34,414 bases of DNA from Polyangiaceae bacterium (GTDB lineage Bacteria > Myxococcota > Polyangia > Polyangiales > Polyangiaceae). The number at the start of each line of letters is the position of its first letter. Within the stretch, counting starts at the first letter, position 1. The position numbers were made by a program, and so were the translations under genes. The DNA lies in assembly GCA_025936205.1 (NCBI GenBank), contig JAICTU010000021.1, positions 1 through 34,414 of the forward strand, read 5' to 3'. Shown here piece by piece: positions 8,280-23,821 of the stretch. Below the pieces are notes generated by a model. It was given only the letters and a program-made list of their open reading frames with translations. It ran no database searches and had not been told where the DNA came from.

Positions 8280-8689
8280 TCGCCGCCGGGCTGGGCTGCC
8301 GCGCGGGTTGCCCGGTGGAAGATGTGCTGGCAGCCCTGGAGCAGGCGCTCGCCGCGGGGGGCTGCTTGCTGGAAGAGCTCAGCGGACTGTACACGGCTCA
8401 GTTCAAGCACGCCGAGCCCGCGCTGCTGCGCGCCGCCGAGCGGCTCGGCAAGCCGCTCCTCGGGTTGCCCCTGGCGGAGCTGCAGGCACAGAACAGCAAG
8501 GCACTGAGCTGCTCCGCGCAGAGCCTCGAGCGCTTTGGCGTGCCCTCCATCGCGGAGACGGCGGCGCTCGCCGGCGCCGCGCGCGGTCCGAGCCCGAGCG
8601 AGCCACGCCTGCTCGGCACGCGCAGCATCGCCGGCAGCGCCACCTGCGCGCTCGCGGTCGACACGCGCAGCGGACCCGGCGCGCCATGA
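8276..8689 (+). CDS. cobE: Cobalamin biosynthesis protein CobE (CbiG C-terminal-like)
   Basis: The product has 137 residues from the ATG at 8276, which overlaps the cobL stop as ATGA; an ATG at 8258 would add six residues. It opens with [20 protein letters not shown] and continues with [24 protein letters not shown]-like [14 protein letters not shown] and ATCALAV-type ending [10 protein letters not shown]. This matches the CbiG C-terminal/CobE domain. In the anaerobic pathway CbiG opens the delta-lactone; the job of stand-alone CobE in the aerobic pathway is not firmly established. Its stop overlaps the cobM start (8686-8689). Confidence 0.9.
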
Positions 8690-9444
8690 CCGTCCACTTC
8701 ATCGGCGCGGGCCCGGGAGCTCCCGACCTGATCACGGTGCGCGGCCGCGATCTGGTCGCGCGCTGCCCGGTCTGCCTGTACGCCGGCTCGCTGGTGCCGC
8801 CCGAAATCGTGGCGCTCGCGCCGGCGGGCGCCCGCGTGGTCGACACGGCCCCGCTCGACCTGGACGAGATCGAGGCCGAGTGGGTCAGTGCCCACGCGGC
8901 GGGCCTCGACGTGGCGCGCCTGCATTCGGGCGATCTCTCGATCTGGAGCGCGCTCGGAGAACAGCTGCGCCGGCTGCGCCGTCGCGACATCCCCTACAGC
9001 ATCACGCCGGGCGTGCCCGCGTTTGCTGCCTGCGCCGCGCTGCTCGGGCAAGAGCTGACCTTGCCGGAGGTCTCGCAGTCGGTGGTGCTCACCCGCACCA
9101 GCGGGCGAGCCTCCGCCATGCCCGACAGCGAAGCGCTGGAGGCCTTCGCCGCCACACGCGCGACGCTGGTCGTGCACCTGTCCGTGCACGTGCTGGACAG
9201 CGTGGTGGAGCGCCTGCTCCCTCACTACGGCCCCGACTGCCCGATCGCGGTCGTGTACCGCGCCAGCTGGCCCGATCAGCGTAGCGTCCGCGGCACGCTG
9301 AGCACGATCGTCGCCCTGGCCGCCGAGAGCCCGATCGAGCGCACCGCGACGCTGCTCATCGGCAGCGTGCTCGAAGAGCAGGACTTCCGCGAGAGCGCGC
9401 TGTACAGCCGCGACTACCAGCGGCGCTTCCGGGGCCGCGAGTAA
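8686..9444 (+). CDS. cobM: Precorrin-4 C11-methyltransferase
   Basis: CobM methylates C11 of precorrin-4 with SAM, giving precorrin-5. The product has 252 residues. [20 protein letters not shown] at the N-terminus, [29 protein letters not shown], the [20 protein letters not shown] block and the [14 protein letters not shown] segment are close to family consensus. The ATG overlaps the cobE TGA as ATGA. cobB starts three bases after its stop, so the genes are part of one tight run. Confidence 0.96.
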
Positions 9445-9447
9445 CGC

Positions 9448-10830
9448 ATGAGCGTCGCGCGCTTGCTGATCGCCGGCGTGTCCAGCGGCGTCGGCAAAAC
9501 GACGCTCAGCGTCGGCCTGATCCGCGCGCTGCGCCGCCGCGGCCTGCGCGTGGCGGCGTTCAAGTGCGGCCCCGACTATCTCGACCCGACCTATCACAGC
9601 CTGGCGGCAGGGCAACCCAGCCAGAACCTCGACGGCTGGATGATGGGCAGGCAGGCGGTGCTGGACACCTTCAGCGCTGCCACCGAGGACGCAGACATCG
9701 CGATCATCGAAGGCGTGATGGGCCTGTTCGACGGCGCCTCACCGCTGAGCGACGAAGGCTCCAGCGCCGAGATCGCCAAATGGCTGAACGCCCCCATCCT
9801 GCTGGTCACCGACGCGAGCGGCATGGCGCGCAGCATCGCCGCCCTCGCGCGCGGCTTCGCCGACTTCGACCCGGAGCTGCGCGTCGCGGGCATCGCCGCG
9901 AACCGCGCCGGCAGCGCGCGCCACCTCGAGCTGCTGCACACGGCGCTCGCAGGCCGTCCACCCTTGCTCGGCGGCCTGCTGAAACGCCCCGCGCTCGCCT
10001 TCCGCGAACGCCACCTCGGCCTCTGGACGGCAGACCGCCAGCACCTGCCCGACGAGCTGCTCGAACAATGGGCAGACGAAGTGACGGGCGGCTTCGACCT
10101 CGATGCGCTGATCGAGCTCGCGCGCTCCGCGCCTGCTCTTCCGCCGGCGGCCCTTCGCGCACCGGCGGCCAGCGAGCCCCGTTGCCGGATCGGCGTCGCG
10201 CTGGATGCGGCCTTTCACTTCTACTACGCCGACAACCTGCGCCGCCTCGAACAGCTCGGCGCCGAGCTCTGCTACTTCTCGCCGATCGCCGCGCGCGAGC
10301 TCCCCGACGTCGACGGCCTGTATTTCGGCGGCGGCTACCCCGAGCTCCATGCACACGAGCTGGCAGCAAACCACAGCCTGCGCGCCGCCATCCGCGTTTT
10401 CGCCGAAACGGGCGCCCCCATCTACGCCGAGTGCGGCGGCCTCATGTACCTCGTCGACTCCATCCGCACCCTCGACGGCACGAGCTACCCCATGATCGGC
10501 TGCCTGCGCGGAGAAGCGGTGCTCCGCGATCGCCTGGTGTCGCTCGGCTACGTCGAAGTCGAAACCCTGGCCCCTTCCCTGCTCGGCCCCGCCGGCCAGC
10601 GCTTCCGCGGCCACCAATTCCGCTACTCCGAGCTGATCGATGCCCCCGCGGGCGACACCTACCGCCTGCACCAACGCCGCGGCGGCGAGCCCCAGCTCGA
10701 GGGCTACCGCACCGGCAACCTGCTCGCCTCCTACGTCCACGCCCACTGGGCGTCCAACCCCGCGCTCGCGGCGAACTTCGTCCAGGCCTGTGCCCACTGC
10801 CGCGCGCGGCGATCCGCGCAGCGCGGATAG
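9448..10830 (+). CDS. cobB: Cobyrinic/hydrogenobyrinic acid a,c-diamide synthase
   Basis: CobB amidates the a and c acetate side chains using ATP and glutamine. The product has 460 residues, the full family length. The N-terminal part has the P-loop GVSSGVGKTTLS (residues 10-21), FKCGPDYLDPTYH and VMGLFDG. The C-terminal class I glutaminase domain has the nucleophile Cys329 in YAECGGLMYL, preceded by GLYFGGGYPELHA, and the terminal histidine region SYVHAHW. The 3' end is partly duplicated at about 11850-12009. The last codons overlap a 7-bp hairpin. In the aerobic pathway this makes the substrate of the cobaltochelatase CobNST, which is not in the window. Confidence 0.95.
   Translation: MSVARLLIAGVSSGVGKTTLSVGLIRALRRRGLRVAAFKCGPDYLDPTYHSLAAGQPSQNLDGWMMGRQAVLDTFSAATEDADIAIIEGVMGLFDGASPLSDEGSSAEIAKWLNAPILLVTDASGMARSIAALARGFADFDPELRVAGIAANRAGSARHLELLHTALAGRPPLLGGLLKRPALAFRERHLGLWTADRQHLPDELLEQWADEVTGGFDLDALIELARSAPALPPAALRAPAASEPRCRIGVALDAAFHFYYADNLRRLEQLGAELCYFSPIAARELPDVDGLYFGGGYPELHAHELAANHSLRAAIRVFAETGAPIYAECGGLMYLVDSIRTLDGTSYPMIGCLRGEAVLRDRLVSLGYVEVETLAPSLLGPAGQRFRGHQFRYSELIDAPAGDTYRLHQRRGGEPQLEGYRTGNLLASYVHAHWASNPALAANFVQACAHCRARRSAQRG
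10812..10828. terminator. Hairpin at the cobB stop codon
   Basis: A perfect 7-bp inverted repeat, ATCCGCG/CGCGGAT, with a 3-base spacer, ending in the cobB stop codon (TAG at 10828-10830). It has no T-tract. A near-identical copy with one wobble position lies at 11993-12009, within the degraded cobB repeat. Confidence 0.4.
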
Positions 10831-10910
10831 AAGCGATTGGGTCTACCCTCCCGAAGCGTAACGATCGCATTGGCTCGGGCGGCCTTGCGTGGAGAGCGGC
10901 GACGGCTGAA

Positions 10911-11240
10911 CTACGGGCTCGTCGACTCGCGCACGAATAGGCGGCACCCCACTCGATCGATGTGCTCGCGCAGCGGGACGTAGCGGATCTGCGGATAAGC
11001 GCATACGTCGAAGGCGTAAGGTAACGGTAGCTCGTCGAGCTCACCTGCGATGCGATTAGCGAGGACTTCGTCCACGTCTCCATACAGAGCGAGGTCGACA
11101 TCCGACTCCGGACGATGACGCTCCAGCGCGCGCGAGCCGAAGACCCTTGCTTCGCTCACCTCGGGATGACGAGCGAGTACGGCCCGCACCATGGACCGAG
11201 CTCGTGCGTCGAGCCCTGCATCGGCCAGTCCATCCGTCAT
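10911..11240 (-). CDS. Minimal nucleotidyltransferase (MntA-like antitoxin, MNT domain)
   Basis: The product has 109 residues and is a short nucleotidyltransferase. The signature is GSRALERHRPESDVDL: Gly35-Ser36 and the metal ligands Asp47 and Asp49, with a third acidic residue at Asp78 (YAFDVCAY). In characterised HEPN/MNT pairs the MNT protein AMPylates and silences its HEPN partner (type VII toxin-antitoxin). The partner gene lies immediately upstream and their stop and start overlap as ATGA (11237-11240). Base composition is clearly lower in GC than the neighbouring cob genes, which suggests transfer. It could also be an ordinary HI0073/HI0074 pair of unknown role. Confidence 0.87.
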   Translation of the reverse strand: MTDGLADAGLDARARSMVRAVLARHPEVSEARVFGSRALERHRPESDVDLALYGDVDEVLANRIAGELDELPLPYAFDVCAYPQIRYVPLREHIDRVGCRLFVRESTSP

Positions 11241-11653
11241 GATGCTGCCTGCTGCTGCAGGTACTGCTGTAGAGCTTCGAGCGCTGGAAGGTAACGAGTT
11301 TGTATTTCCCCGAGGCCCTGGCTGAGCAGAGCCTGGTCATACTTGTGAGACAGTAGATTGCGATGGTCGATCATATCGACCCAAAGCTGACCGTCGCTGA
11401 TGATGCGAGCGGCAAAGGCTGCTTTGATCACAGTCTTCGGGGTAATCGACCTCAATTCGACCCCGCTGAACTCGATGTAATCCTTCAGCGACTTCCACGC
11501 GAGCTCGACCGTGTACTCGAAGCGCTGTACGGTCCCTTCCTTCTCCAGGTCGTTCAGTGCGCCAACGCCGCGCACCAGAGCGGACTGGAGTAACGACAGC
11601 GCTCGAGAGTAGTTCTGGAGGCGCTGGCGCCAACGAATATCCGGATCCGGCAC
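11237..11653 (-). CDS. HI0074-family HEPN-like partner of the nucleotidyltransferase
   Basis: The product has 138 residues from a GTG start at 11653, and is mostly alpha-helical (the family fold is a four-helix bundle). It belongs to the nucleotidyltransferase substrate-binding/HI0074 group: RFEYTVELAWKSLKDYIEF, TPKTVIKAAFAARII and DMIDHRNLLSHKYD are family blocks. Arg98 and His103 form an Rx4H motif, the active-site pattern of HEPN RNases. It may therefore be the toxin of the pair, although some HI0074 proteins are regarded only as binding partners. The stretch 11341-11400 inside it is 50% G+C, far below the neighbouring cob genes. Confidence 0.85.
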   Translation of the reverse strand: MPDPDIRWRQRLQNYSRALSLLQSALVRGVGALNDLEKEGTVQRFEYTVELAWKSLKDYIEFSGVELRSITPKTVIKAAFAARIISDGQLWVDMIDHRNLLSHKYDQALLSQGLGEIQTRYLPALEALQQYLQQQAAS

Positions 11654-11849
11654 GGCAGCAAACTAGCACGAGACCTGCACGCTTTGCCAATCAGGGTGAC
11701 GTCCGACACAACCCCGCGCCTGGCAAGAATGGCGCCACGCTGCAGCCGCACGCCGCTCGTCACAAGCTGGCTCCCCCTCGCGCATCAATCCTCCTCATCA
11801 GATTCGGCTCGAGGGCGATTCGCAACGCGGCGGCGACCTCCGGCAACGC

Positions 11850-12009
11850 CCACCCGCCTGGACCGCATGCCGCGGCAGCTCCCGAGATCGAAACTACGCG
11901 CGGGTAACGTGCTCGCCGCCCACGTCCGCGCCCATTGGGTCCCAACCAGGAACTCGCTGACTCAGCGCCTGTGCCGACTCGCCTGCACGCCGATCCGTGC
12001 AGCGCGGAT
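11850..12009 (+). pseudogene. Degraded second copy of the cobB 3' end
   Basis: The stretch 11900-11939 matches cobB 10711-10750 at about 32 of 40 bases. One frame reads GNVLAAHVRAHW against GNLLASYVHAHW in CobB. Similarity extends upstream (CCGCCTG...GCCGCGG) and, after small indels, downstream to a copy of the stop-codon hairpin (11993-12009). Reading frame is lost and no start is present, so this is a remnant. The rest of the 11654-12059 gap shows no gene that I can support. The remnant lies on the far side of the HEPN/MNT module, so cobB-end sequences flank that module in direct orientation. Confidence 0.68.
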
Positions 12010-12059
12010 GAGATGGGCTCGGCGCGGCAAGGCGCTCGCCGGCTCCAGCATGTACCCGC

Positions 12060-12674
12060 TCAGCGACTCACGGCGCTGCCCGGCTTCGGCTCTTCCTCGA
12101 CCACGAAGCGGCTACAGCCGAAGTGCCCACACACCGAGTCCAGCGTGCCGGTGCTGATGCGCTCCGTGCCGACCGAATACTCCATGAACAGGCCATCGAC
12201 CGAGTGCGGCGCGCGATTCAACGTGATCACGTGAAACAGCTCGTGGATCAGCCGGTTGTCGAGCTCGTCCCCGCTCAGCTGGGACTGCATGGCCACGCCC
12301 AGCGTCGCGCCGCCGGCGGCTTCCGAAGTGCACGCCAGCGCCGGATCCGGATTGCCCTGGCAGTACACCTGATCTCGAAATGAGAGCTCGAACCCGCAGC
12401 CCTGCTGCTGCGACTCGCAGCGCTGGGCATGATCGGGCTCCGCGATCACGAGACCTGGATCGCCGATGGCCGCCTGGATGCGCCCCTGAGCGCGCAGTGC
12501 CGCCTGATAGAGCGCGGCATCCCGCGTAAAGAACTCGATGCGCGGCGCAGTGTCCGCCGCTTCGTCGTGCTCACCGAGCTGCACCTGCGCCGGCGCAGAG
12601 CCGCACGCAATCCCGAAGAGACCCAGCGCAATCCCATAGACAGCGCGCAGCTCCAGCGTTGCTTTGTATTGCAT
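12060..12674 (-). CDS. Putative lipoprotein with HExxH metalloprotease-like motif
   Basis: I do not recognise the family. The product from the ATG at 12674 has 204 residues. A short hydrophobic stretch (VYGIALGLFGIAC) ends in a lipobox with Cys24, so it should be a lipoprotein. The motif HELFH (His144, Glu145, His148) lies in RLIHELFHVITLNRAPH, with further possible zinc ligands at His157 and Glu165 (FMEYSVG). Six or more cysteines in the C-terminal two-thirds could form disulfides. This suggests a zinc-dependent peptidase or a metal-binding relic. An in-frame upstream start at 12734 would hide the signal peptide inside the protein, so I prefer 12674. Confidence 0.68.
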   Translation of the reverse strand: MQYKATLELRAVYGIALGLFGIACGSAPAQVQLGEHDEAADTAPRIEFFTRDAALYQAALRAQGRIQAAIGDPGLVIAEPDHAQRCESQQQGCGFELSFRDQVYCQGNPDPALACTSEAAGGATLGVAMQSQLSGDELDNRLIHELFHVITLNRAPHSVDGLFMEYSVGTERISTGTLDSVCGHFGCSRFVVEEEPKPGSAVSR

Positions 12675-13151
12675 CGTGAAATACCAATCCAGCGCCGCGC
12701 GCACGACAGCGACTGCGCGCCTGCCGGCACGCAACGAAGCGCTTCGAGAACTGCGCGCTGCGACTCGCGCGCGAAGCCGCCGTCACCCCGCGCCTGCGGC
12801 GCGAAGGGGCTCCTGTCTACTCAACGAAGCAAGCAACCCACAGTGTAGGCAGCAAGGCGCCCCGCGCCAGGCATTTCAGGCTGCGCTCGCTCCGGGGGCG
12901 CCCGCATGCCCGCGGAGTGATCCAGACAGAAACAGGTTTGAGCCGATGTGAAACAAGCGCGGCACTGTCGCCACGCTCGAGGGCATCGCGACGAACATTT
13001 CAGCGCAGCCCTGCGCGCAAGGGCTTACGCAGCGCGGCTGTTTCACCTGATCGGTCATGACGACTTAAAAGCACCGTTTTGCAACCGTTTACCAAGCCCA
13101 CGCCCATTCGGGCACGGAAGGCGCGGCGCCTTCGAAGAAGGGAAGTTGGGG
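12675..13151. other. Intergenic region with a 5'-leader hairpin
   Basis: 477 bases between divergent genes, with no convincing ORF. It should hold promoters for both neighbours, but I could not identify a clear -35/-10 pair. A perfect 8-bp inverted repeat, GAAGGCGC/GCGCCTTC with one spacer base (13117-13133), lies 18 bases before the next start codon and could affect its translation. Confidence 0.5.
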
Positions 13152-15074
13152 ATGAAAAGGTTGAGGGCACCATTTGTTGCCGGGCTGACGCTGCTCGCGT
13201 GGGCCGCGTGCAAGGACGAAGGCGTGTTGTATCTGACGAGCGCCAACGACGAGGCGCCGGGCATCAACTGCTCCGACGGCGGCACCAAGCTGAATTTCGG
13301 CGCCGACAAGAACGCCGACGCGACGCTGAACAGTGACGAGATCACGGCCAGCGCCTACGTGTGCAACGGCGCCGCCAGCCGCGGAGCGCTCGCGACCACC
13401 ACCGCTCTGGACGCCAATGATCCCGCCTGCCCGAGCGGCGGCTACGCGCTGTCGGTCGGTGTCGATCGCAACGGCAACGGGGTCGTGGATGCCGACGAGG
13501 GCGGCGTGGTTCGCAAGATTTGCAACGGCGCCACCGGTCCCGCGGGGAGCAACGGCAGCGACGGTCCTGCGGGCTCCCAGGGAGCTCAGGGCGATGCCGG
13601 TCCGCCCGGACAGGACGGCGCGCAAGGGCCCACGGGGGCTCAGGGTAACGACGGCAGCCCCGGTACCAATGGCACCAATGGCACCAATGGCACCAATGGC
13701 ACGCCGGGCACCGATGGCACGCCGGGCACCAACGGCACCAACGGCAGCAACGGCACGGATGGCTTCTCCTCGCTGATCCACATGACGCCCGAGCCGGCTG
13801 GGACCATTTGCACTCAGGATGGCCTGCGAGTGGACATGGGCCTCGACAACGGTGACGGCGCGGGCGACCCCAATGACGGCATTCTGAACGACGACGAGAT
13901 CGACCAGACCTCTTACGTCTGCTCGCTCGTCGCCTGCGGTGACTCGGTGGTTTCCCCCGGCGAGACCTGTGACGACGGCAACAACGTCACGGAGGCCTGC
14001 GCCTATGGCGACACCAGCTGCACCGTCTGCAACGCCAGCTGTCAGACCGCGGCCGGAGCGACGAGCTTCTGCGGCGACAGCGCGGTGGACGTCAGCAACA
14101 ACGAGAACTGCGACGACGGCAACACCGTCACCGAGTCTTGCAACTACGGTGACACCAGCTGCACCGTGTGCGATGCCACCTGCACCAGCGTGCCCGGCGC
14201 CACCAGCTTCTGCGGCGACAGCAACGTGGACCCGGGCAACGGCGAAGACTGCGACGACGGCAACGCCACCACCGAAGCGTGCGCATACGGCGATCCCAGC
14301 TGCACCGTTTGCAACTCCTCCTGCGTCAGCGCTCCCGGTGCCACCAGCTTCTGCGGCGACAGCGTCGTCGACGCCAGCAACGGCGAGGACTGCGATGACG
14401 GCAACGCCACCACGGAAGCCTGCGCCTACGGTGATCCCAGCTGCACGGTTTGCAACTCCTCCTGCGTCAGCGCCCCTGGCACCACCAGCTTCTGCGGCGA
14501 CGGCGTCCTCGATGTCAGCAACGGTGAATCCTGCGATGACGGCGGCAACGTGGACGGCGATGGCTGCAGCGCGACGTGCGTGGCGCAACAGCTGGTCAAT
14601 AACAGCTTCGAAACCGGCGACTTCACGGGCTGGATCACCCAGGACCTGACCAGTCCGCTGTTCGCGCTGAGCGTAAGCCCGGTCGGGACTGATGGTGCCT
14701 TCGGCGTGAGCAACGGTTTTGACGGTAACGGCGGTCCCGGCAACGACTCCATCTTCATTGCACAGGATATCGATCTGACGGGGGTCAGTACGGTGGCGGT
14801 GTCGATCGACTGGAACGCAAGCTGTAGTAACTTCAGTCAAAGCCGCGTGTTTTCGCTGATTGTAGAGCCATTTGGCGGTGGCACGGCGCTCTTCACTCAT
14901 GACTACTTGACCTGCCCTCCGACCTCGTCTGGATCCGGTTCCGACGACACCGTGGACATCAGCTCGGTGGCTGGGCAGCCCGTACGCATCAAGTTCCGCT
15001 GGCTCGTACCGGAGACCTTCACCGGTCCAGGGTCCGCAACGCTGGACGACATCAAGCTGGTCTACGGCCCTTGA
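13152..15074 (+). CDS. Surface lipoprotein with collagen-like and Myxococcus cysteine-rich repeats
   Basis: The product has 640 residues. It begins MKRLRAPF, with a short hydrophobic segment ending AWAAC, a probable lipobox. Two segments of the DUF7151-like type (GTKLNFGADKNADATLNSDE; LSVGVDRNGNGVVDADE) follow, each ending in a CNG motif, with a third after the collagen part. The collagen-like Gly-X-Y tract spans about 13530-13760 and is rich in GTN and GPA triplets. Then come five Cys-rich units starting CGDS/CGDG (13935, 14070, 14211, 14352, 14493) of the Myxococcus cysteine-rich (DUF4215-like) type. The C-terminus (NNSFETGDFTGW...) looks like a jelly-roll carbohydrate-binding-like domain. 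It is probably a cell-surface or matrix protein; partner unknown. The start has GGAAG upstream. Confidence 0.85.
   Translation: MKRLRAPFVAGLTLLAWAACKDEGVLYLTSANDEAPGINCSDGGTKLNFGADKNADATLNSDEITASAYVCNGAASRGALATTTALDANDPACPSGGYALSVGVDRNGNGVVDADEGGVVRKICNGATGPAGSNGSDGPAGSQGAQGDAGPPGQDGAQGPTGAQGNDGSPGTNGTNGTNGTNGTPGTDGTPGTNGTNGSNGTDGFSSLIHMTPEPAGTICTQDGLRVDMGLDNGDGAGDPNDGILNDDEIDQTSYVCSLVACGDSVVSPGETCDDGNNVTEACAYGDTSCTVCNASCQTAAGATSFCGDSAVDVSNNENCDDGNTVTESCNYGDTSCTVCDATCTSVPGATSFCGDSNVDPGNGEDCDDGNATTEACAYGDPSCTVCNSSCVSAPGATSFCGDSVVDASNGEDCDDGNATTEACAYGDPSCTVCNSSCVSAPGTTSFCGDGVLDVSNGESCDDGGNVDGDGCSATCVAQQLVNNSFETGDFTGWITQDLTSPLFALSVSPVGTDGAFGVSNGFDGNGGPGNDSIFIAQDIDLTGVSTVAVSIDWNASCSNFSQSRVFSLIVEPFGGGTALFTHDYLTCPPTSSGSGSDDTVDISSVAGQPVRIKFRWLVPETFTGPGSATLDDIKLVYGP
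13530..13762 (+). repeat. Collagen-like Gly-X-Y triplet tract
   Basis: About 75 codons with glycine every third residue, including a run of the nine-base unit GGCACCAAT (13668-13700) coding Gly-Thr-Asn. Such tracts fold as collagen-like triple helices in bacterial surface proteins and vary in length by slippage. Confidence 0.85.
13935..14580 (+). repeat. Tandem cysteine-rich repeat, 135-141-bp period
   Basis: Units start at 13935, 14070, 14211, 14352 and 14493: the first spacing is 135 bases and the next three are exactly 141 (47 codons). Units three and four share long identical DNA stretches (for example the code for CNSSCVSAPG), so duplication is recent. The fifth unit ends in the canonical GDGCSATC form. 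Confidence 0.9.
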
Positions 15075-15173
15075 GGCCATCGTCGCGGTCTCCGTCCGAG
15101 CCCCTCGCGCGCGGGGTTCGGCGGAGGCCGGCGGCGCTCCTGTCGAGAGCTTGCTGATCAGCGCGTTGACTCC

Positions 15174-15190
15174 GCGGCGAGGGACGCCGC
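15174..15190. other. Hairpin upstream of the OmpA-like gene
   Basis: A perfect 6-bp stem, GCGGCG/CGCCGC, with a five-base loop, 24 bases before the next ATG. It could end the preceding transcript or structure the leader of the next one. Role unknown. Confidence 0.35.
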
Positions 15191-15214
15191 GCGGACGAAT
15201 TTTCGGGGTGTAGC

Positions 15215-16720
15215 ATGCGTTATCGCTGGTTGTTTCTGGGTAGTTCGAGTGCAGTTTTGAGTCTACTGACGGCCTGGGCGCCGTCCGCACACGCGCAAGA
15301 CGCGCTGGCAACGACCACGGTCGGCGCAGAAGCCTCCGTCGCCTTGCACACTTCCACGCAGGACGCCGGCGATTCCGGCGACTTCCTGCATCAATACACG
15401 CCCCAGGCGAACACCTTCGAGCTGGGTGCGTACGCAGGGATGTTGTTCATCTCCGATCAGAACAGCTTCCGCGGCCCCGGGAGCAACAGCACCGGCCAAA
15501 CCGTGCTACGTCCGTATTCGGAGTACAAGCAGCCCGCTGCCGAGCTGGGCGCGCGGCTCGCGTACTTCCCCCTCACCTTCCTGGGCGGCGAGCTCGAGGG
15601 CATGGTGGGGCTGGCCAAGGCGGACCGCGGCGACGCCGGCACCCTCTGGGCGGCTCGCGCGCACGTGGTGGCGCAGGCGCCCTTCTGGCGCGTGACGCCC
15701 TTCATTCTCGGCGGCGCCGGTTACTGGGCGCTGAGCAACAAGACCTCGGGCAGCGACACCGATCCCGCCTTTCACTTCGGTGGCGGTGTCAAGCTCGCAG
15801 CGAACGATGACCTGAGCATCCGCGTCGACGTGCGCGACACGCTGACCAACCAGCGAGCGCTGGGCGACATGCCGAACAGCCTGGAGGTCTCGGCGGGCGC
15901 GAGCCTGGTGCTCGGCCGCAGCAAGGCGCCGGTGGATCGCGACGGCGACGGCTTCCTCGATAACAAGGATGCCTGTCCGTCCGAAGCCGGCGTCGCGCCC
16001 GACGGCTGCCCGCTGCACGACCGGGACGGCGACCAGATCCTCGACACGGACGACCGCTGCCCGGACCAGGCAGGGCCCGCCCCGACGGGCTGCCCGCTGC
16101 TCGACGCAGACTCCGATGGCATTCCGGATGATGCCGATCAGTGCGTGAAGGAACCGGGCCCGGCGCCGCTGGGTTGCCCGGACAGCGACAGCGACGGCGT
16201 GCTGGACCGCAACGATCAGTGCCCGAACGTGGCGGGCGTGGCACCGCTCGGCTGCCCCGGCGACAGCGACCAGGACGGCATCGCCGATCCCGACGACAAG
16301 TGCCCGCAGGAAGCCGAGACCAAGAACGGCTTCGAGGACACCGACGGCTGCCCCGACGTGCTGCCGGACGCCGTGAAGAAGTTCACGGGGGTGATCTCGG
16401 GTATCGAGTTCGACGTGGGCAAGGGCACGATCCGCAAGGGCTCCTTCAGCGTCCTGGACCAGGCGGCGAAGATCCTCGCGGACTATCCCGACCTCAAGGT
16501 CGAGATCGCGGGCCACACCGATGACACCGGCGCCCATGACTACAACATCAAGCTCTCGCAGGAGCGCGCCGATGCGGTGAAGAGCTATCTCGCCTCGAAG
16601 GGCGTGGGCGCCGAGCGCATCACCACGCGCGGGGCCGGCCCCGACGAGCCGCTGGTCAACGAGAAGACGAGCTCGGCGCGGCAGAAGAACCGCCGCATCG
16701 AGTTCCACATCCAGCAGTGA
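15215..16720 (+). CDS. OmpA-family outer-membrane protein with thrombospondin type 3 repeats
   Basis: The product has 501 residues. The signal peptide is residues 1-27, cut after AHA. About residues 60-225 have the alternating pattern of an eight-stranded-type beta-barrel. Five TSP3-type calcium-binding repeats (DRDGDGFLDNKDACP and relatives) span about 235-375. The C-terminal OmpA domain (about 390-501) has VEIAGHTDDTGAHDYNIKLS and RQKNRRIEF, the peptidoglycan-binding motifs. It should anchor the outer membrane to the cell wall. The ATG has GGGG upstream and family-like sequence begins at once. Two hairpins lie downstream. The preceding surface lipoprotein is 140 bases upstream on the same strand. 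Confidence 0.92.
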   Translation: MRYRWLFLGSSSAVLSLLTAWAPSAHAQDALATTTVGAEASVALHTSTQDAGDSGDFLHQYTPQANTFELGAYAGMLFISDQNSFRGPGSNSTGQTVLRPYSEYKQPAAELGARLAYFPLTFLGGELEGMVGLAKADRGDAGTLWAARAHVVAQAPFWRVTPFILGGAGYWALSNKTSGSDTDPAFHFGGGVKLAANDDLSIRVDVRDTLTNQRALGDMPNSLEVSAGASLVLGRSKAPVDRDGDGFLDNKDACPSEAGVAPDGCPLHDRDGDQILDTDDRCPDQAGPAPTGCPLLDADSDGIPDDADQCVKEPGPAPLGCPDSDSDGVLDRNDQCPNVAGVAPLGCPGDSDQDGIADPDDKCPQEAETKNGFEDTDGCPDVLPDAVKKFTGVISGIEFDVGKGTIRKGSFSVLDQAAKILADYPDLKVEIAGHTDDTGAHDYNIKLSQERADAVKSYLASKGVGAERITTRGAGPDEPLVNEKTSSARQKNRRIEFHIQQ

Positions 16721-16739
16721 AGCGGGCATATTCTGGTGA

Positions 16740-16774
16740 GGGCAAGGTCGGGCGGAAACGAGCCCACCCTGCCC
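16740..16774 (+). terminator. Stem-loop just after the OmpA-like gene
   Basis: Arms 16740-16753 and 16762-16774 pair over 12 bp with one mismatch and one bulge, around the loop GGAAACGA. It begins 20 bases after the stop. No T-tract follows. Confidence 0.45.
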
Positions 16775-16798
16775 CCTCCGGGTAGACCGCTTTCATCC

Positions 16799-16840
16799 AG
16801 GCCGGCAGCCGACCCTCCCCGCGAGGTACGCTGCCGGCCT
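16799..16840. terminator. Long inverted repeat upstream of the CbiC-type gene
   Basis: A perfect 11-bp stem, AGGCCGGCAGC/GCTGCCGGCCT, with a 20-base loop. Only TTGCTGC follows. It may be a transcription-terminating hairpin or a binding site; it lies 98 bases before the next gene. Confidence 0.45.
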
Positions 16841-16938
16841 TGCTGCGCCTGCTGTCCATTCCGCCCCGCTGCGTCGGCCCGGCGCAGATTCCGATCGCCT
16901 CCGTAGCGGCGGGAGAATAGAGTCGCGTCTCGCGTGCG

Positions 16939-17556
16939 ATGACGATCGAGAGTGGAGGCTTTGCCATCATCGACCAGGAGGCGGGGTCACACCACTTTCC
17001 TCCCGATGAGTGGCAGGTGGTGCGGCGGGTGATCCACGCCACCGCGGACTTCGAGTTTCTGGACCTGATGTGCTTCTCGCCCGGCGCCACCCGTGCCGGC
17101 GTGGAAGCGCTGGAGGCGGGCTGCCCGATCGTGGTGGACATGAGCATGATCTCCACGGGAGCGAACTCCGAGCGGCTGGCGGCGCGCGGCTGCGTCGTGC
17201 ACTCGTTCATCTCGGACGATGACGTGATCGCCAGCGCCAAGGCGCACAACTCGACGCGTGCGATCGAGGCGATGCACAAGGCGCACGCGAGCGGAGTGCT
17301 GGATGGCGCCATCGCCGCCGTGGGCAACGCGCCCACGGCGCTGCTCGCGCTGCGCGATCTGGTGCGCGATCACGGCGCGAAGCCGGCGCTGGTGATCGGG
17401 GTGCCGGTGGGCTTCGTGTCCGCCGCGGAGTCGAAGGAGGCCACGCTCGGGCTCGATGTGCCGCACATCGTGGCCCGCGGCCGCAAGGGCGGCAGCGTGG
17501 TCGCGGTGGCAATCTTGCAGGCGCTGCTCGCGCTGGCGAACGCGCCGGCGGGCTGA
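16939..17556 (+). CDS. cbiC: Precorrin-8X methylmutase, anaerobic CbiC type (second copy)
   Basis: The product has 205 residues. It is a second methylmutase, but of the CbiC group: IESGGFAIIDQEAG, then RRVIHATADFEFLDLMCFSPGA with the expected catalytic histidine at His33. The C-terminal AVGNAPTALLALRDL, GVPVGFVSAAESKE and RGRKGGSVVAVA blocks are intact, so it should be active. It differs from the CobH at 4089-4721 around the active site (RLIHTSGSVELSRD). In the anaerobic pathway it acts on cobalt-precorrin-8. The N-terminus is slightly short, and an in-frame TAG at 16918-16920 rules out an extension. There is no good ribosome site. It stands alone, 6 kb from cobB. Confidence 0.88.
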   Translation: MTIESGGFAIIDQEAGSHHFPPDEWQVVRRVIHATADFEFLDLMCFSPGATRAGVEALEAGCPIVVDMSMISTGANSERLAARGCVVHSFISDDDVIASAKAHNSTRAIEAMHKAHASGVLDGAIAAVGNAPTALLALRDLVRDHGAKPALVIGVPVGFVSAAESKEATLGLDVPHIVARGRKGGSVVAVAILQALLALANAPAG

Positions 17557-17918: not shown

Positions 17919-17984
17919 CGACGGCGCGCGCGCCGGCACGTCCCACGGCTGCGACCCACAATTCCGAGCGGCATCGTGTTCTTG

Positions 17985-18071
17985 ATGGCCCGGCTCCCCT
18001 CAGCGCTCGTGATCACCACCACCACCACTACCACCCCCAGGGGTGGGCTCGGTGGTGTGATGGCACACTGA
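17985..18071 (+). CDS. Threonine-rich leader peptide of the thrS-like gene
   Basis: A 28-codon ORF from ATG 17985 to TGA 18069-18071. The peptide is MARLPSALVI, then seven consecutive Thr codons (18015-18035: six ACC and one ACT), then PRGGLGG, ending VMAH. In-frame GTG (17976) or TTG (17982) starts are possible; a GAGCGG element lies upstream of these. The Thr codons overlap the 5' arm of the first hairpin and a terminator hairpin follows, exactly as in the thr and his operon leaders of enteric bacteria. A ribosome short of Thr-tRNA would stall here. Expression of the peptide is inferred. Confidence 0.85.
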   Translation: MARLPSALVITTTTTTTPRGGLGGVMAH

Positions 18072-18106
18072 CGCTGGCAAAACCCGGCGCACCGCAGGCC
18101 CCTCCC
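18015..18106 (+). promoter_or_regulatory. Attenuator: pause hairpin versus antiterminator
   Basis: Arm 1 is the Thr-codon stretch (CCACC units, 18015-18037). Arm 2 is the G-rich stretch 18040-18059, which can pair with arm 1 (CCACCC with GGGTGG, and CACCACC with GGTGGTG). Arm 3 (18088-18106) can instead pair with arm 2: nine of ten positions for 18040-18049 with 18097-18106, and six for GGTGTG with CGCACC. Arm 3 is also the 5' arm of the terminator. Stalling on Thr codons would mask arm 1, favour 2:3 pairing and allow read-through into thrS. Confidence 0.8.
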
Positions 18107-18134
18107 ATCGGACGGGGCCTGTCGTCATTTCAAT
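18095..18134 (+). terminator. Attenuator terminator of the thrS-like gene
   Basis: An 8-bp perfect stem, CAGGCCCC (18095-18102) and GGGGCCTG (18114-18121), extended inside by TCC/GGA around loop CATC with one bulged C. It is followed by TCGTCATTTCAATT, moderately T-rich. It lies 23 bases after the leader-peptide stop and 54 bases before the thrS ribosome site. Confidence 0.8.
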
Positions 18135-18187
18135 TCGACACGGCCCTGTCTGCCCCACGGAACTCGCATCCCAGAGGAGACAGAAAC

Positions 18188-19420
18188 ATGTCGGAAGCAA
18201 TCGATCACCGTGACCTCGCCCGAGACCAGGACCTCTTTCATTTCCAGGAGGAGGCGCCGGGCATGGTGTTCTGGCACGCGCGCGGGCTGGCCCTGTGTCG
18301 CTCGCTGGAGCAAGCAGCGCGCGCCGTCGTCGAGCCAGACTATGCCGAGGTGCGCTCTCCGCAGCTGATGCGGCAGCCGATCTGGGAAGCCAGCGGCCAC
18401 TGGCAGCACTTCGCAGAGGGGATGTTCAAGCTGGAGGAGGACGACGGCCGAGGGCTCGCGCTGCGGCCCGTCAACTGCCCCGGGCACGCTCAGATCTACC
18501 GGAGCGCGCTGCGCTCTCACCGCGATCTGCCGCTGCGGCTGGCGGAGTTTGGTGTGGTGCATCGCAAGGAGCCGAGCGGCGCACTGCACGGTCTGTTCCG
18601 GCTGCGGCAGTTCATGCAGGACGATGGTCACATCTTCTGCCGTCCCGAGCAGGTGGCTGCCGAGCTGGAGCGCTTCTGTCGTTCCCTGCAGCTGTTCTAT
18701 CGCGGCTGCGGCTTCGCGGAGCTGGCGGTCGGGTTGTCGCGTCGCCCGCCGGAGCGGCTGGGCTCCGATGGGAACTGGGACGCCGCCGAGCAAGCGCTGG
18801 AGCGAGCGGCGCGCGGGCTCGGCGTGGAGTTCATCGACCAGCCTGGTGAGGGCGCGTTCTACGGCCCGAAGCTGGAGTTCAAGCTGCGCGATCGGCAGGC
18901 GCGCATCTGGCAATGCGGGACGATCCAGCTCGACTTCGCCATGCCCGAGCGCTTCGAGCTCGAGTATGTCGACGCCGGCGGTCAGCGCCGGCGCCCGGTC
19001 ATGCTGCACCGGGCGCTGTACGGCAGCGTCGAACGTTTCCTGGGCATCCTGCTCGAGCACTATCAGGGCCGGCTGCCGGCCTGGCTCGCACCCGAGCAAG
19101 CGCGCGTGTTCGCGCTGAGCGCGGGCGAGCTGGAGCCCGCGCGCGCGCTGTGCGCGGCGCTCCGCGCAGCAGGTCTGAGGGCGAGCCTGGACTCGAGCGA
19201 GGATCGTCTGGGCAGCCGCATCGCGCGCACGCGCCAGCTGGCGGTGCCGTTCTTGCTCTGCATCGGCGCGCGCGAAGCCCAGGCGCGGAGCGTCAGCGTG
19301 CGGCAGGGCGAGCAGCGCTCGGAGCTGGGCATCGAGCGCGCCGTTTCCGAGCTGGCTGCAGCGTGCGCGCCGCCGTTCGGCCCCGTCAGCGGAGGTTTGC
19401 CCGGGAAGCTGCCGGGCTAG
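18188..19420 (+). CDS. Threonyl-tRNA synthetase lacking TGS and editing domains
   Basis: The product has 410 residues and charges tRNA-Thr. It starts where E. coli ThrRS reaches its catalytic core (DHRDLARDQDLFHFQEEAPGMVFWH), so the N-terminal TGS and Ser-Thr editing domains (about 230 residues) are absent. Class II motif 2 is VVHRKEPSGALHGLFRLRQF and motif 3 starts VMLHRALYGSVERFLG. The zinc/threonine-site ligands are conserved as Cys97, His148 and His274. The anticodon-binding domain is about 300-395. AGAGGAGA (18173-18180) precedes the ATG. Related bacterial ThrRS are near 640 residues, so a full-length housekeeping copy elsewhere is likely. Without editing, seryl-tRNA-Thr would not be cleared by this protein. 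Regulation by the Thr leader attenuator suggests induction when charged tRNA-Thr is low. Confidence 0.93.
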   Translation: MSEAIDHRDLARDQDLFHFQEEAPGMVFWHARGLALCRSLEQAARAVVEPDYAEVRSPQLMRQPIWEASGHWQHFAEGMFKLEEDDGRGLALRPVNCPGHAQIYRSALRSHRDLPLRLAEFGVVHRKEPSGALHGLFRLRQFMQDDGHIFCRPEQVAAELERFCRSLQLFYRGCGFAELAVGLSRRPPERLGSDGNWDAAEQALERAARGLGVEFIDQPGEGAFYGPKLEFKLRDRQARIWQCGTIQLDFAMPERFELEYVDAGGQRRRPVMLHRALYGSVERFLGILLEHYQGRLPAWLAPEQARVFALSAGELEPARALCAALRAAGLRASLDSSEDRLGSRIARTRQLAVPFLLCIGAREAQARSVSVRQGEQRSELGIERAVSELAAACAPPFGPVSGGLPGKLPG

Positions 19421-19618: not shown

Positions 19619-22600
19619 ATGAGTGAAGCCATCGAGAACGAGGCGCCCGGCGCCAGCGTCGACGGTCGCATGCGCCGCCGTTCTTTGCCGCTCGGCGGCT
19701 GGCCCTGGCTGGCCGTGCTCACCGCCTGCGGACCGACCAGCGCGAGTGAGCAAAGTCTGGGGCTCTCGGAAAGTGCCTCCAGTCTGATCAACCATCCAGA
19801 ATCGGAGGCAGCTGCCGCCCAGGCAGGCCCCTACACTTTGTTCGAAGCGGATCCCGTGCGGCCGATCGCCGTGCTCGAGCGCAGTGGCCTGGTGGCAGTC
19901 ACGAATACGGTCGACAACTATCTCGAGCTGCTCGCCCCGACGCGCCGCACCGTGGAAGCGTGCGGGGCCGTCTCCGTGGGGCTGCAGCCCGTGGCCGTGG
20001 CCGTGATCGATGAGGGTCGGGACCGAGCCGAGCTCTGGGTGGTCAATCAGCTCTCGGACAGCGTGAGCGTCGTCGCGCTCGACACGCGCAATTGCAAGGC
20101 GGAGGTCATCCGCACGCTGGCCGTCGGCGACGAGCCGCGCGACATCGTGGTGGCCAGCGACTCGCAGGGCAACCAACGCGTGTTCGTGGCCACGGCTCAC
20201 CGCGGCCAGCAGCATCCATCCGCGGGAGCGCGGCTCGCCACCGACCTGGTCACGCCCCCGAGCGAAAAGCTCGAACGCGGCCTGGCCGACGTGCTGGTCT
20301 TCGATCCGCGAGCTCCCGATGCGCCCCCGGCGGTGGTCAACTTGTTCGCGGATCGGCCCCGCGCGCTCGCCGTCGCCGACGGTGTGGTGTACGCGGCCAG
20401 CTTCTTCAGCGGCAACCGGACCACCGTCATCCCCGCGCAGACCGTGACGGCTCGTGGCCTCGCCAGTTTGCAGGGTGTACTGGCGCTCGATGCCGACGGC
20501 GCGCCGATCGAGCAGGGCGGCGAGCTCGCGCTGGCGCCAGGCGCACAGGGCCGGGTGATCGAGGGCGGATTGCCCGCCGTGGCCGGCAGCGGGCGCTGCC
20601 TCGCCGACCCGCGCGATCAGGGCGACGATTTCCAGCTGCTGAAGCTGTGCGCCGAGACCGACGCGCAGCAGCACTTGCAGCGCGTGCTCGTGCAGCAGCC
20701 GGGCGCCGCGAATCCGAGCTGCCAGTGCACCAGCGGCGACGGCAGCTGGCAGCCCACCACCGGCTTGATCGTGAAGTTCTTCGACGATCGGGCGAGCTGT
20801 GGCGAGAGCTGGACGACCTTCCCCGACGGAACGCAGGGCTGCTGGCTCGACGCCGCGCCGAACGCGCCCGCCTCCCCCGCGCGCTTCGCCGATCAGCGCG
20901 CGGCGCCCCTCGCCTGGAACCAGCAGGTCAAGTTCTCCCTACCGGATCAGGATGTGTTCGGCATCGGGGTCGACGATCTGCAGGTGTCGAGCAGCTTCTC
21001 CGGCGTGGGCACGATCCTGTTCAGCCTGTCGGTGCAGCCGCAAACGGGCAAGCTGTTCGTGACCAACACGGACGCCCAGAACCTGACGCGCTTCGAGGGC
21101 CACGGCTCGAGCTCCAGCAGCAGCGTGATCGGTCATCTGCACGAGAGCCGCATCACCGTCATCGACCCCGGCAATGCCGACGCGGGCGCCCGGGTGCAAC
21201 CGATCCACCTGAACAGCCACATCGATTACGCGCGCTGCTGCGACAAGGACCCCGAGGAGAACAGCAAGAGCTTCGCCTTCCCCACCTCGGGCGTATTCTC
21301 TGCCGACGGCGAGCGCTTCTTCTTCAGCGCGCTCGGCTCGGACAAGATCGGCATCGTCAGCGCGGGCGCGCTGCGCTCCGGCTTCGATCAGGACGCGGCC
21401 CGAGCCGCCGGCGATCTGCGCGAGCTGTTCCTGAGCGACGACGTCGCGAACCCGGAAGGCCCCGTCGCGCTCGCGCTCGATGCTCGCCGCGATCGGCTGT
21501 ACGTCAAGACTCAGTTCGACAATGCCCTGCTGGTGGTCGATGCCGAACGCGAGCGCCTCACGGGCCGCGTGCGCTTGCCGAGCCCGGAACCGGAGTCGGT
21601 GACGCGCGGGCGCTCGGTGCTCTACAACGCGCGGCTCACCTCCTCGCATGGGGACTCGGCCTGCGCCAGCTGCCACGTGTTCGGTGACTTCGACGGCCTG
21701 GCCTGGGACCTCGGCGACCCCGAGGGACACACGGTGACGAACCCGGGCCCGTTCGCGCTGCCGGGGCGGGATATCGCGGATTTCCGCAGCAACAAGGGCC
21801 CCATGACGACCCAGACCCTGCGCGGACTCGCCAACCAGGGCCCCCTGCACTGGCGCGGCGATCGCACGCGGCGCTTCCAGGACGCGCCCGGCGAGCAGCC
21901 CGACTTCGGCTCGCTGAACGAGGCCAGCTCCTTCGGCGAGTTCGACGCCGCGATCGGCACCCTGAACGGCAACGACCGCGAGCTGGACCCGGCAGTGTTC
22001 GCGGCCTTCACCGAGTTCTCGCTGCAGCTCAGCTTGCCGCCCAACCCCAACCGGCACCTCGACAACACGCTGACGCCCGACCAGGCGGCGGCGCGCGCGC
22101 TGTTCTTCGGCTGCAGCAGCATGAGCGACGCGCAGTTCGCGGCGCGCACCTGTCTGGGCAACGATGGCTCGCTGGTCTCGATTGATGCGGCGAGCACCGA
22201 CTGCCTGTGCGCACGCAATCCCATCGTGGATGGGCTGCGCCGGCTGCCACAGGTGCAAGCCTTCGCGGAGCTGCTCGCCGCGCGTCTGGCGGAGGGCGGC
22301 CTGCGCGCGCGGCTGGAGGCGCTGGCCAGCGACAGCGCGCAGCTGCCGCCCGATCAGCGCGCGGCCGTCGCGAGCGCCGCCGCCGAGTTTGCCGCGGGCA
22401 ACGCGCAGCTGCTCGGCGCCGACCTCACGCCGGCGGAGGACTCGCTGCTCTCCGCGAGCCTGGCAGCAGCGCTCTCGCAGCTGAGCAGCGGGCTCTCGCG
22501 GGTGCTCGCGGCGTCCACACAGAACGGCACGAGCACCGCGCAGGAGATCGCCGACGCGCTGTTCGCCGCGTTGCCATCGGAGGCGGTCCCGCCCGACGTG

Positions 22601-23821
22601 CCGCGCGACGCGCAGGGCGTCAGCGTGATCTTCGACGTGATCGCGGAGGTGACCGGGTTGAGCGAGCTGGCACGCAACGACGAGCTGGCACGCGGTACGA
22701 GCGCCTTCCGCAACCTGCTCTCGGGCTGCGAAGTGGGCGTCGAGGCGCCGGCCTGCAAGCTGCGCGTCACCGATACCATGCTCACCTGCGACGGCTGCCA
22801 CCGCCTCGATCCGAAGGGCAATGCGGAGTTTGGCGTGTCGCGCCCCGGCTTCTTTGGCACCGACGGGCGCTACTCCTTCGAGGGCGAGAGCCAGGTCTTC
22901 AAGGTCCCGCACCTGCGCAACCTGTATCAGAAGGCAGGCCGTTTCGGTAACGCCCCGGACGGGTTCTTCTTGCCCGAATCGGTGCTCGGCGCGCGCCGCG
23001 GCGGCTTCTTCTCCGAGGACACCGAGTTCACGGGGCCGCAGGTCCGAGGCTTCGGCTTCTTCCATGACGGTGGCGCCGACACGCTGCACCGCTTCCACGG
23101 CGCAACGGTCTTCGCACGCAGCTCCGACAATCGGGACGCCCTGGACGCCTTCCGTCCGCGAGCAGAGCAGACGGCGGCCTGCGTGGCGCTGTTCCGGCAG
23201 GCGCCGAGCTCGCTGTTTGCAGCCGCGTCCGAGCAGGTCCGTCGCTTCCTGCCGCTGTGCACGGCGCCGGGGCCATTACCGGACGTATGCTTCAGCGATG
23301 CCAGTGCGCCGGAGTGCCAGGCGGCGCTGGCCGCTGCCGGAGCGGAGCTGGGGCTCGACGTGCTGCCGCAGATCTTCGCCGAGAACATCGAGCCGCTCTG
23401 CTTCCAGCTGGGCTCGATGGCGGAGGGCGGCAGCCCCGACGGCGTGTGTTATCCCGCCGGGCTGCACGAGCGAGCGCAGCTGGAGAGCTTCATGCTGGCC
23501 TTCGACACCAACCTGAAGCCCATGGTGGGGCAGCAGCTCACGCTCGCGAGCGCGCACGGGGAGGACGCGCGGCTCGCGCCGTTGCTGGCGGCGGCCGCCG
23601 CGGGCGACTGCGACCTCGCCCTGAGCCAGCACGGGCGCGGCTACCTGATCACCCAGCCCGACTCCGCGCAACCCGAGCAGAGCCGCCTCGAGGATCGGCG
23701 GGGGCAGCAGCTGAGGTTGGGCGAGTTGCTGGAGCGCGGCGGAGCCGCCACGCTGACCTGCCATCCGCCAGCCGTGAACCTCGGGGAAGCGCGACGCGCC
23801 GCCTTCGGCCGCGCACGTTAG
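19619..23821 (+). CDS. Giant lipoprotein: YVTN-type beta-propeller fused to di-haem cytochrome c
   Basis: The product has 1400 residues. A lipobox (LAVLTAC, Cys36) follows a 16-residue extension; the start at 19619 has AAGGGAG upstream, while ATG 19667 is an alternative. About residues 70-680 hold repeats such as LELLAPTRRTVEA, ELWVVNQLSDSVSVVALD and TLAVGDEPRDIVVASD, typical of YVTN/surface-layer beta-propellers. Two haem sites follow: CASCH at 682-686 and CDGCH at 1057-1061, the latter before VPHLRNLYQKAGRFG, the cytochrome c peroxidase/MauG-like pattern. About 20 further cysteines may form disulfides. It is likely outer-membrane or surface anchored, acting in electron transfer, peroxide reduction or oxidation of a substrate. 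The actual reaction is not known. Confidence 0.85.
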   Translation: MSEAIENEAPGASVDGRMRRRSLPLGGWPWLAVLTACGPTSASEQSLGLSESASSLINHPESEAAAAQAGPYTLFEADPVRPIAVLERSGLVAVTNTVDNYLELLAPTRRTVEACGAVSVGLQPVAVAVIDEGRDRAELWVVNQLSDSVSVVALDTRNCKAEVIRTLAVGDEPRDIVVASDSQGNQRVFVATAHRGQQHPSAGARLATDLVTPPSEKLERGLADVLVFDPRAPDAPPAVVNLFADRPRALAVADGVVYAASFFSGNRTTVIPAQTVTARGLASLQGVLALDADGAPIEQGGELALAPGAQGRVIEGGLPAVAGSGRCLADPRDQGDDFQLLKLCAETDAQQHLQRVLVQQPGAANPSCQCTSGDGSWQPTTGLIVKFFDDRASCGESWTTFPDGTQGCWLDAAPNAPASPARFADQRAAPLAWNQQVKFSLPDQDVFGIGVDDLQVSSSFSGVGTILFSLSVQPQTGKLFVTNTDAQNLTRFEGHGSSSSSSVIGHLHESRITVIDPGNADAGARVQPIHLNSHIDYARCCDKDPEENSKSFAFPTSGVFSADGERFFFSALGSDKIGIVSAGALRSGFDQDAARAAGDLRELFLSDDVANPEGPVALALDARRDRLYVKTQFDNALLVVDAERERLTGRVRLPSPEPESVTRGRSVLYNARLTSSHGDSACASCHVFGDFDGLAWDLGDPEGHTVTNPGPFALPGRDIADFRSNKGPMTTQTLRGLANQGPLHWRGDRTRRFQDAPGEQPDFGSLNEASSFGEFDAAIGTLNGNDRELDPAVFAAFTEFSLQLSLPPNPNRHLDNTLTPDQAAARALFFGCSSMSDAQFAARTCLGNDGSLVSIDAASTDCLCARNPIVDGLRRLPQVQAFAELLAARLAEGGLRARLEALASDSAQLPPDQRAAVASAAAEFAAGNAQLLGADLTPAEDSLLSASLAAALSQLSSGLSRVLAASTQNGTSTAQEIADALFAALPSEAVPPDVPRDAQGVSVIFDVIAEVTGLSELARNDELARGTSAFRNLLSGCEVGVEAPACKLRVTDTMLTCDGCHRLDPKGNAEFGVSRPGFFGTDGRYSFEGESQVFKVPHLRNLYQKAGRFGNAPDGFFLPESVLGARRGGFFSEDTEFTGPQVRGFGFFHDGGADTLHRFHGATVFARSSDNRDALDAFRPRAEQTAACVALFRQAPSSLFAAASEQVRRFLPLCTAPGPLPDVCFSDASAPECQAALAAAGAELGLDVLPQIFAENIEPLCFQLGSMAEGGSPDGVCYPAGLHERAQLESFMLAFDTNLKPMVGQQLTLASAHGEDARLAPLLAAAAAGDCDLALSQHGRGYLITQPDSAQPEQSRLEDRRGQQLRLGELLERGGAATLTCHPPAVNLGEARRAAFGRAR

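Follow-up and report, generated by a model that had tools for sequence, protein, structure and literature searches.

Organization of the locus

The window, by which the whole analysed stretch of 34,414 nucleotides is meant, contains a short open reading frame with a run of threonine codons, a series of mutually complementary segments and, on the same strand, a gene for a threonyl-tRNA synthetase (ThrRS), here named thrS2. Their coordinates are collected in Table 1.

Table 1. Features of the leader region and of thrS2, numbered from the first nucleotide of the window; SD, Shine-Dalgarno.
Feature	Position	Strand	Description
Candidate -35 element GCGAC	17951..17955	+	34 nt before the leader ATG; weak in the window
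Leader peptide ORF	17985..18071	+	28 codons, MARLPSALVITTTTTTTPRGGLGGVMAH and stop; without SD in front, likely leaderless mRNA
Segment 1	18015..18035	+	seven Thr codons (ACC x6, ACT x1), putative regulatory codons
Hairpin 1:2	18020..18057	+	18020-18037 with 18040-18057, 78% complementary, from the repeat search
Segment 2	18040..18049	+	pairs with segment 3, nine of ten positions
Segment 3	18095..18105	+	5' arm of hairpin 3:4
Segment 4	18109..18121	+	3' arm of hairpin 3:4; 11 positions (18109-18119) pair with segment 5
Segment 5	18142..18152	+	putative mask of the ribosome-binding site (18146-18151 with 18178-18183); also pairs with segment 4
Segment 6	18175..18183	+	SD AGGAG (18175-18179) and the following ACAG
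thrS2	18188..19420	+	ATG at 18188; 410 aa, ThrRS catalytic and anticodon-binding domains; no TGS/editing domain

The initial annotation had described a frame of 28 codons with seven consecutive threonine codons, a hairpin across them, a good ribosome site and a ThrRS-like gene downstream, and all of these are present at the positions listed. The run of segment 1 is the only one of at least seven threonine codons in the window, both strands being scanned, and no such run occurred in 300 windows generated by a first-order Markov model. The thrS2 product scores 432.2 bits on TIGR00418 thrS (cut-off 383.65); it consists of the class II core and the anticodon-binding domain, and matches solved ThrRS over their catalytic part, the N-terminal half being absent.

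Among the genes upstream on that strand (6990-17556), two match tetrapyrrole methylases, one a CobB/CbiA-like amidotransferase and one the precorrin-8X methylmutase CbiC, a cobalamin-type set. The protein encoded at 12948-15074 combines three stretches of DUF7151 with repeats of the collagen type and a match to DUF4215, and thrS2 is followed by a frame of 1396 aa (19631-23821) with no Pfam match at E ≤ 0.001.

The short ThrRS and its relatives

In a scan of GTDB genomes, of which the best 80 ThrRS loci were kept, 15 loci had no match to the E. coli N-terminal domain, which was found in 64 of the other 65 (the exception, L037, begins at a contig end). All 15 carry myxobacterial record titles. 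One further candidate for a short ThrRS without leader, L062, was rejected: its N-terminal domain lies in a different frame, which makes L062 a full-length gene with a likely frameshift. Strong matches (E ≤ 1e-116) were obtained in 27 of 183 genomes from the order of L001 (a Polyangiaceae MAG), in 66 of 96 from the family of L007 (Corallococcus), and in 3 of 112 (G001, G117 and G083) from a sample of the phylum. The resulting set comprises 95 distinct loci, window included, after L081-L095 and L112 had been dropped as repeats of loci already in the set; matches weaker than E = 1e-116 in the order and family searches, and a few frames of 378-510 aa in the phylum sample (G057, G089, G107, G121), were set aside.

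All 95 short proteins keep the catalytic and zinc residues of ThrRS that were compared, the zinc ligands C334, H385 and H511 together with R363 and R520 (E. coli numbering). The editing residues H73, H77, C182 and H186 fall in gaps in all 95, and are present in all of the 42 long proteins. Judged from its sequence, the thrS2 product is thus a ThrRS without the N-terminal editing domain.

The copy in the window is likely a second, spare one. A second ThrRS locus was found in all 40 genomes checked (15 + 25). Its open frame measures 630-743 aa in each of the 15, and 643-768 aa in the other 25, except for G083 (462), G179 (549) and G262 (1340). G274 carries two long frames, of 688 and 709 aa, besides the short ThrRS, which makes three loci in this genome.

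In a FastTree phylogeny of the shared region, the 95 short proteins form one clade (support 0.999), whose sister group is made up of the E. coli ThrRS and 24 others sampled from beta-/gammaproteobacteria and cyanobacteria; the tree is rooted at the midpoint, and these 24 were hand-picked out of 65 non-myxobacterial loci, themselves chosen by similarity. The full-length genes that the phylum search had yielded, 42 in number, are not sister to the short clade. This placement suggests that the short ThrRS was gained horizontally and then lost its N-terminal half. In the tree output, the ThrRS of a contig titled Klebsiella pneumoniae MAG (L015) is listed beside that of Cupriavidus (L017), and the organism label of L015 may be wrong. 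The spacing and strand of the genes beside thrS2 look different among the six loci inspected.

A signature of obafluorin/borrelidin resistance was considered for the window and rejected, as Gly463 is kept and residue 489 is M; according to PMC11252418, L489M gives no obafluorin resistance, and G463S and G463A weaken obafluorin and borrelidin. The position of E. coli Gly463 is G in 93 of the 95 short proteins and A in two, a change reported there to weaken both inhibitors.

Conservation of the threonine leader

Each of the 15 short loci among the best 80 is directly preceded by a Thr-rich ORF with 6-8 Thr in 9 codons. Over the whole set, a Thr-rich ORF was found within 450 nt upstream in 95 of 95 loci, and, when only the 300 nt before the refined start were counted, 94 had 8 codons with 5-8 Thr among them. 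The exception is L147, whose leader (MARKLTTTTTTITAVRGGSVACTL) is unusually distant from thrS2, and which is left out of the counts over 94 loci given below. At least 5 Thr in 8 codons occur upstream of only one in 40 full-length thrS genes (42 were taken for comparison, and two with less than 250 nt of upstream DNA were dropped). As counted over these loci, the association of leader and ThrRS is far beyond chance, and the Thr-codon leader in front of thrS2 is almost certainly real. The initial annotation had named as evidence against itself homologous loci keeping thrS and losing the Thr run or the 2:3 pairing without compensatory change. It withstood this check: the Thr-rich ORF is constantly present, and of the 2:3 motifs GGCGGG/GGCGAGG is exact in 85 and CCCGCC in 90 of the 94 loci.

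Within the runs, ACC, ACG and ACT interchange synonymously among relatives, the leader totals over the 94 loci being ACC 420, ACG 167, ACT 87 and ACA 1. The thrS2 genes themselves have the opposite preference, with ACG 254 and ACC 93; the reversed choice in the leaders may reflect either pairing needs or sensing of tRNA-Thr(GGU).

A sequence-only model, R1, run on 10 genomes, recovered the thrS2 copy in eight, seven of which are from its training alignment; the copy was missed in G001 and G003, and three further weak matches were returned (E 0.003-0.05).

Transcription and translation start of the leader

A consensus promoter scan of the window found no promoter. In the relatives, TTGAC starts exactly 36 nt before the nearest leader GTG/ATG in 65 of 94 loci, and TTGAC-like boxes (at least 4 of 5 positions) fall 35-39 nt before the leader start in 81, against a background, measured at positions -120 to -45, of 1.05 of the 94 loci per position on average. 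By the sigma-70 consensus, this slot is a candidate -35 element; in the window and in L001 it reads GCGAC, at -34, and is a weaker candidate. SD-like motifs were found at 16 of 94 leader starts as opposed to 93 of 94 thrS2 starts. Because of the fixed spacing of TTGAC and the scarcity of SD motifs, translation of the leader likely takes place on a leaderless mRNA, which would begin with the start codon of the leader.

Alternative pairings of the leader RNA

The initial annotation had also proposed two competing pairings. The first, 2:3 (18040-18049 with 18097-18106), was confirmed from the letters at nine of ten positions; the second, hairpin 3:4, was returned by the repeat search as 18095-18102/18114-18121, and extends in full over 18095-18105 with 18110-18121. 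The two are mutually exclusive, as segment 3 is common to both. Downstream, segments 4, 5 and 6 of the window may form two helices, CGGACGGGGCC:GGCCCTGTCTG and CTGTCT:AGACAG. Taken alone, neither 2:3 nor 5:6 goes beyond shuffles in the window.

Relatives were aligned in two sets, A1 with 65 Myxococcaceae sequences and A2, in which L216, of the same family, was placed. RNAalifold, unprompted, gave for A1 a consensus with GGCGGG:CCCGCC (2:3, in 64-65 of 65) together with 4:5, as CCGG..CGGGG : CTCCG..CCGG, and two pairs retained onto the GG of the SD; on 29 other sequences it returned no structure. Pairs were then divided into an OFF set (3:4 and the SD mask 5:6) and an ON set, both evaluated on the Myxococcaceae. 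In the OFF set 91.9% of the cells are paired, versus 24-54% when the set is slid. Cells changed on both sides number 39, against 10.5 (sd 2.6) in shuffles, a value reached by none of 500; pairs with two-sided change number 4, which 65 of the 500 shuffles also attain, and in this test relatedness can by itself give more than shuffles do. Among 63 sequences, one SD-mask pair occurs as UA in 40 and as AU in 17, and one (columns 175-218) does not form in 27. The ON set is 98.1% paired and hardly varies, so that no covariation can be drawn from it.

In the window, L012, L148 and L155, segments 4, 5 and 6 differ in sequence, yet remain complementary: the helices are GCCGGACGGGGC:GCTCTGTCCGGC and CTCTGT:ACGGAG in L012, AGGCGGGCT:AGCCCGTTT and CCGTTTCG:CGAAACGG in L148, GCCGACGGGGCG:CGTTCCGTCGGT and TCCGTTCC:GGAATGGA in L155. 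The overlapping 4:5 and 5:6 helices were evaluated jointly against dinucleotide shuffles of segment 5. The window reached p = 0.0066, and 25 of 94 loci p ≤ 0.05. For 23 representatives with less than 70% identity, Fisher's combination gave p = 1.8e-5, with 7 of the 23 at p ≤ 0.05 and 16 missing this value. L158 and L160 had no overlapping helix pair in this test.

A T-box or another known RNA family was rejected. Against Rfam (E up to 5) the window gave six hits, all below gathering score and none of them to the T-box model or to that of the threonine operon leader; both models were also without match in four relatives.

Masking of the Shine-Dalgarno sequence

When the 94 loci were folded from hairpin 3:4 on, the mean probability of the SD being unpaired was 0.124, compared to 0.253 for shuffles, with 43 loci at p < 0.1. 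In the window the two values are 0.22 and 0.23, and the SD is not less accessible than in shuffles. A contiguous helix on the SD was matched by 3 or fewer of 60 shuffles in 17 of 95 loci, the window not being among them.

The switch itself was not consistently reproduced by folding simulations. Equilibrium switching averaged +0.044, versus 0.000 for shuffles, with 11 of 94 loci at p < 0.1. With modelled stalled ribosomes the mean SD access was 0.17, versus 0.14 in the fed state, and was higher in 70 of 95 loci; in the window it rose from 0.22 to 0.39-0.53 for stalling at Thr codons 2-6, not at 1 or 7. A crude co-transcriptional simulation with locked helices placed the starved above the fed state in 33, below it in 24 and equal to it in 37 of the 94 loci, the window being among the equal ones. 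In some lineages the output may be other than an SD switch.

Termination or translation

The combination of a cognate codon run with mutually exclusive pairings would assign the system to leader-peptide attenuation. The strongest competitor of translational control is classical transcription attenuation, in which 3:4, with or without Rho, would terminate transcription except when a ribosome held at the Thr codons lets 2:3 form. The exclusive and conserved pairings 2:3 and 3:4 speak for it, as do the strength of the hairpin (median -18.9 kcal/mol, weakest -14.3, over 94 loci) and the TCGTCATTTC that follows it in the window; moreover, high-GC bacteria may terminate without U-runs. The tail of the hairpin argues against it. 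The initial annotation had placed a terminator at 18095-18121, with termination at 18120-18135, and this claim found no support: the letters after 18121, TCGTCATTTCAATT, are interrupted and do not make a U-run, and of the 94 loci two, the window and L156, show at least 5 T among the 10 nt that follow the hairpin. The consensus scan marked on the leader strand only a 5-pair hairpin at 18111-18126, and a scan for hairpins plus T with loose geometry gave matches below -10 kcal/mol in 25 of 95 loci, at scattered positions and none in the window. Termination would also leave the masked SD unexplained. We regard this alternative as unlikely, even if it is the one to be taken most seriously; by sequence criteria the class is not that of the classical transcription attenuator, the GC hairpin of an intrinsic terminator being there and its U-run not. 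Of the earlier claim of an attenuator, the pairings hold and the terminator is not supported; of the earlier reading as a whole, a Thr leader before a ThrRS-like gene in a myxobacterium stands, with the enzyme now recognized as a short ThrRS. Since U-rich tails are found in 2 of 94 loci, and the SD is masked beyond shuffles over the 94, the off-switch was placed at translation.

A second explanation is that the leader couples translation, or allows re-initiation, into thrS2, or that ThrRS2 represses itself, the Thr run being a sensor only by accident. E. coli ThrRS represses its own mRNA, and the SD hairpin could serve as an operator; the leader stop lies 116 nt before the thrS2 start in the window. 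Coupling requires no Thr codons, though, and the run and its frame are kept throughout, which makes this explanation improbable.

Finally, chance or a misread frame can hardly be credited. The thrS2 frame indeed has no stop as far back as 17882, and the run appears in it as His (HHHHHYH), which would fit a His run or an N-terminally extended ThrRS. But the most frequent residue in the run frame is T at 94 of 94 loci (mean 6.6 of 8, versus 4.7 and 4.0 for the other frames, mostly Pro or His and less uniform in relatives), 13 of 15 relatives have a thrS2 frame that extends upstream by only 105-204 nt, and almost every thrS2 start has its own SD motif, as reported above. Both versions were rejected, the Thr frame being the conserved one, and the His run of the window is incidental, because it is the Thr frame that is uniform among relatives.

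A model for the control of thrS2

The reading that we prefer, and consider fairly probable, is that the region 17985-18187 is a ribosome-controlled translational attenuator, turning on thrS2 when charged tRNA-Thr is scarce. With plentiful Thr-tRNA, the ribosome would translate the leader as far as its stop codon and 3:4 would fold; segment 5 would then pair with the SD region (5:6), and thrS2 would remain untranslated. With scarce Thr-tRNA, the ribosome would be held up at the Thr codons and segment 2 would pair with 3, leaving segment 4 to capture segment 5 (4:5) and to free the SD. Stalling is thus proposed to favour 2:3, hence 4:5, hence a free SD. The cascade onto the SD through 4:5 and 5:6 is predicted from modelled pairings, and stalling, the order of folding and the induction of thrS2 are likewise predictions; that shortage of Thr or tRNA-Thr turns the gene on, as already suggested by the initial annotation, would follow from them.

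A wider proposal, put forward tentatively and with nearly balanced chances, is that these loci form a myxobacterial family of six-segment translational attenuators, which combine a leaderless Thr leader, three successive overlapping helices that would pass ribosome stalling on to the SD, and a transferred ThrRS without proofreading as emergency enzyme. If true, amino-acid leader-peptide control would be extended to myxobacteria and to a ThrRS, with an off-switch acting on translation rather than through a U-tract terminator, and searches based on terminators would miss such systems. When Thr-tRNA runs out or ThrRS is inhibited, the emergency enzyme would secure supply at the cost of accuracy. 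A cell that retains a second synthetase without proofreading, controlled by starvation, would thus become open to testing, and mistranslation under stress (Ser at Thr codons) should therefore be measurable.

Comparison with known systems

In open-licence PMC texts, neither a Thr leader in Myxococcota nor an amino-acid leader relaying to the SD through such overlapping helices was found. The leaders of the E. coli thr operon and of pheM-pheST, where pheM is annotated, share with the present one a run of regulatory codons and alternative hairpins; they differ in having an intrinsic terminator, and the thr operon makes Thr, whereas a synthetase is controlled here. In translational attenuation of the ermC type, a ribosome stalled on the leader unmasks the SD, as would happen here, but the stalling is not amino-acid specific and fewer pairing segments are involved. 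Bacillus subtilis thrZ is, as proposed for thrS2, a reserve ThrRS induced by uncharged tRNA-Thr; its T-boxes read the tRNA directly, whereas no Rfam match was found here. An attenuator also controls the indolmycin-resistant TrpRS of Streptomyces coelicolor.

PMC2965389 mentions both ermC-type translational attenuation and the self-regulation of E. coli ThrRS, and describes a His leader peptide on the hisS paralogues hisZ and hisS* of Bacilli. These resemble thrS2 in that a leader peptide precedes a synthetase paralogue, and differ in the amino acid (His), in belonging to Firmicutes, and in having been found via terminators. As far as the excerpts of PMC8079986 go, a thrL is listed upstream of thrS in Streptomyces lividans, again a leaderless leader peptide before thrS with no U-rich terminator found; it has two Thr codons in 18, comes from one genome, and is listed there with no description of alternative structures. 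According to PMC4787780, Anabaena possesses thrS1 and thrS2, the latter an inducible second ThrRS with impaired editing beside the housekeeping copy; its control is by Zur/zinc, and its editing domain is degenerate, not absent as here.

Predicted attenuators of Streptomyces trpS2 and leuS are given in PMC1262725. There, too, a leader rich in the cognate amino acid stands before a synthetase gene, and trpS2 is, by its name, a second copy; amino acids and phylum are different, and leuS, like the trp operons, has a terminator with poly-U in place of the SD mask proposed here. The same paper contains the closest likeness found to a leader relaying to the SD, the LEU element of Actinobacteria, where pairing with the Shine-Dalgarno sequence of leuA is proposed for the Leu run itself (PMC1262725).
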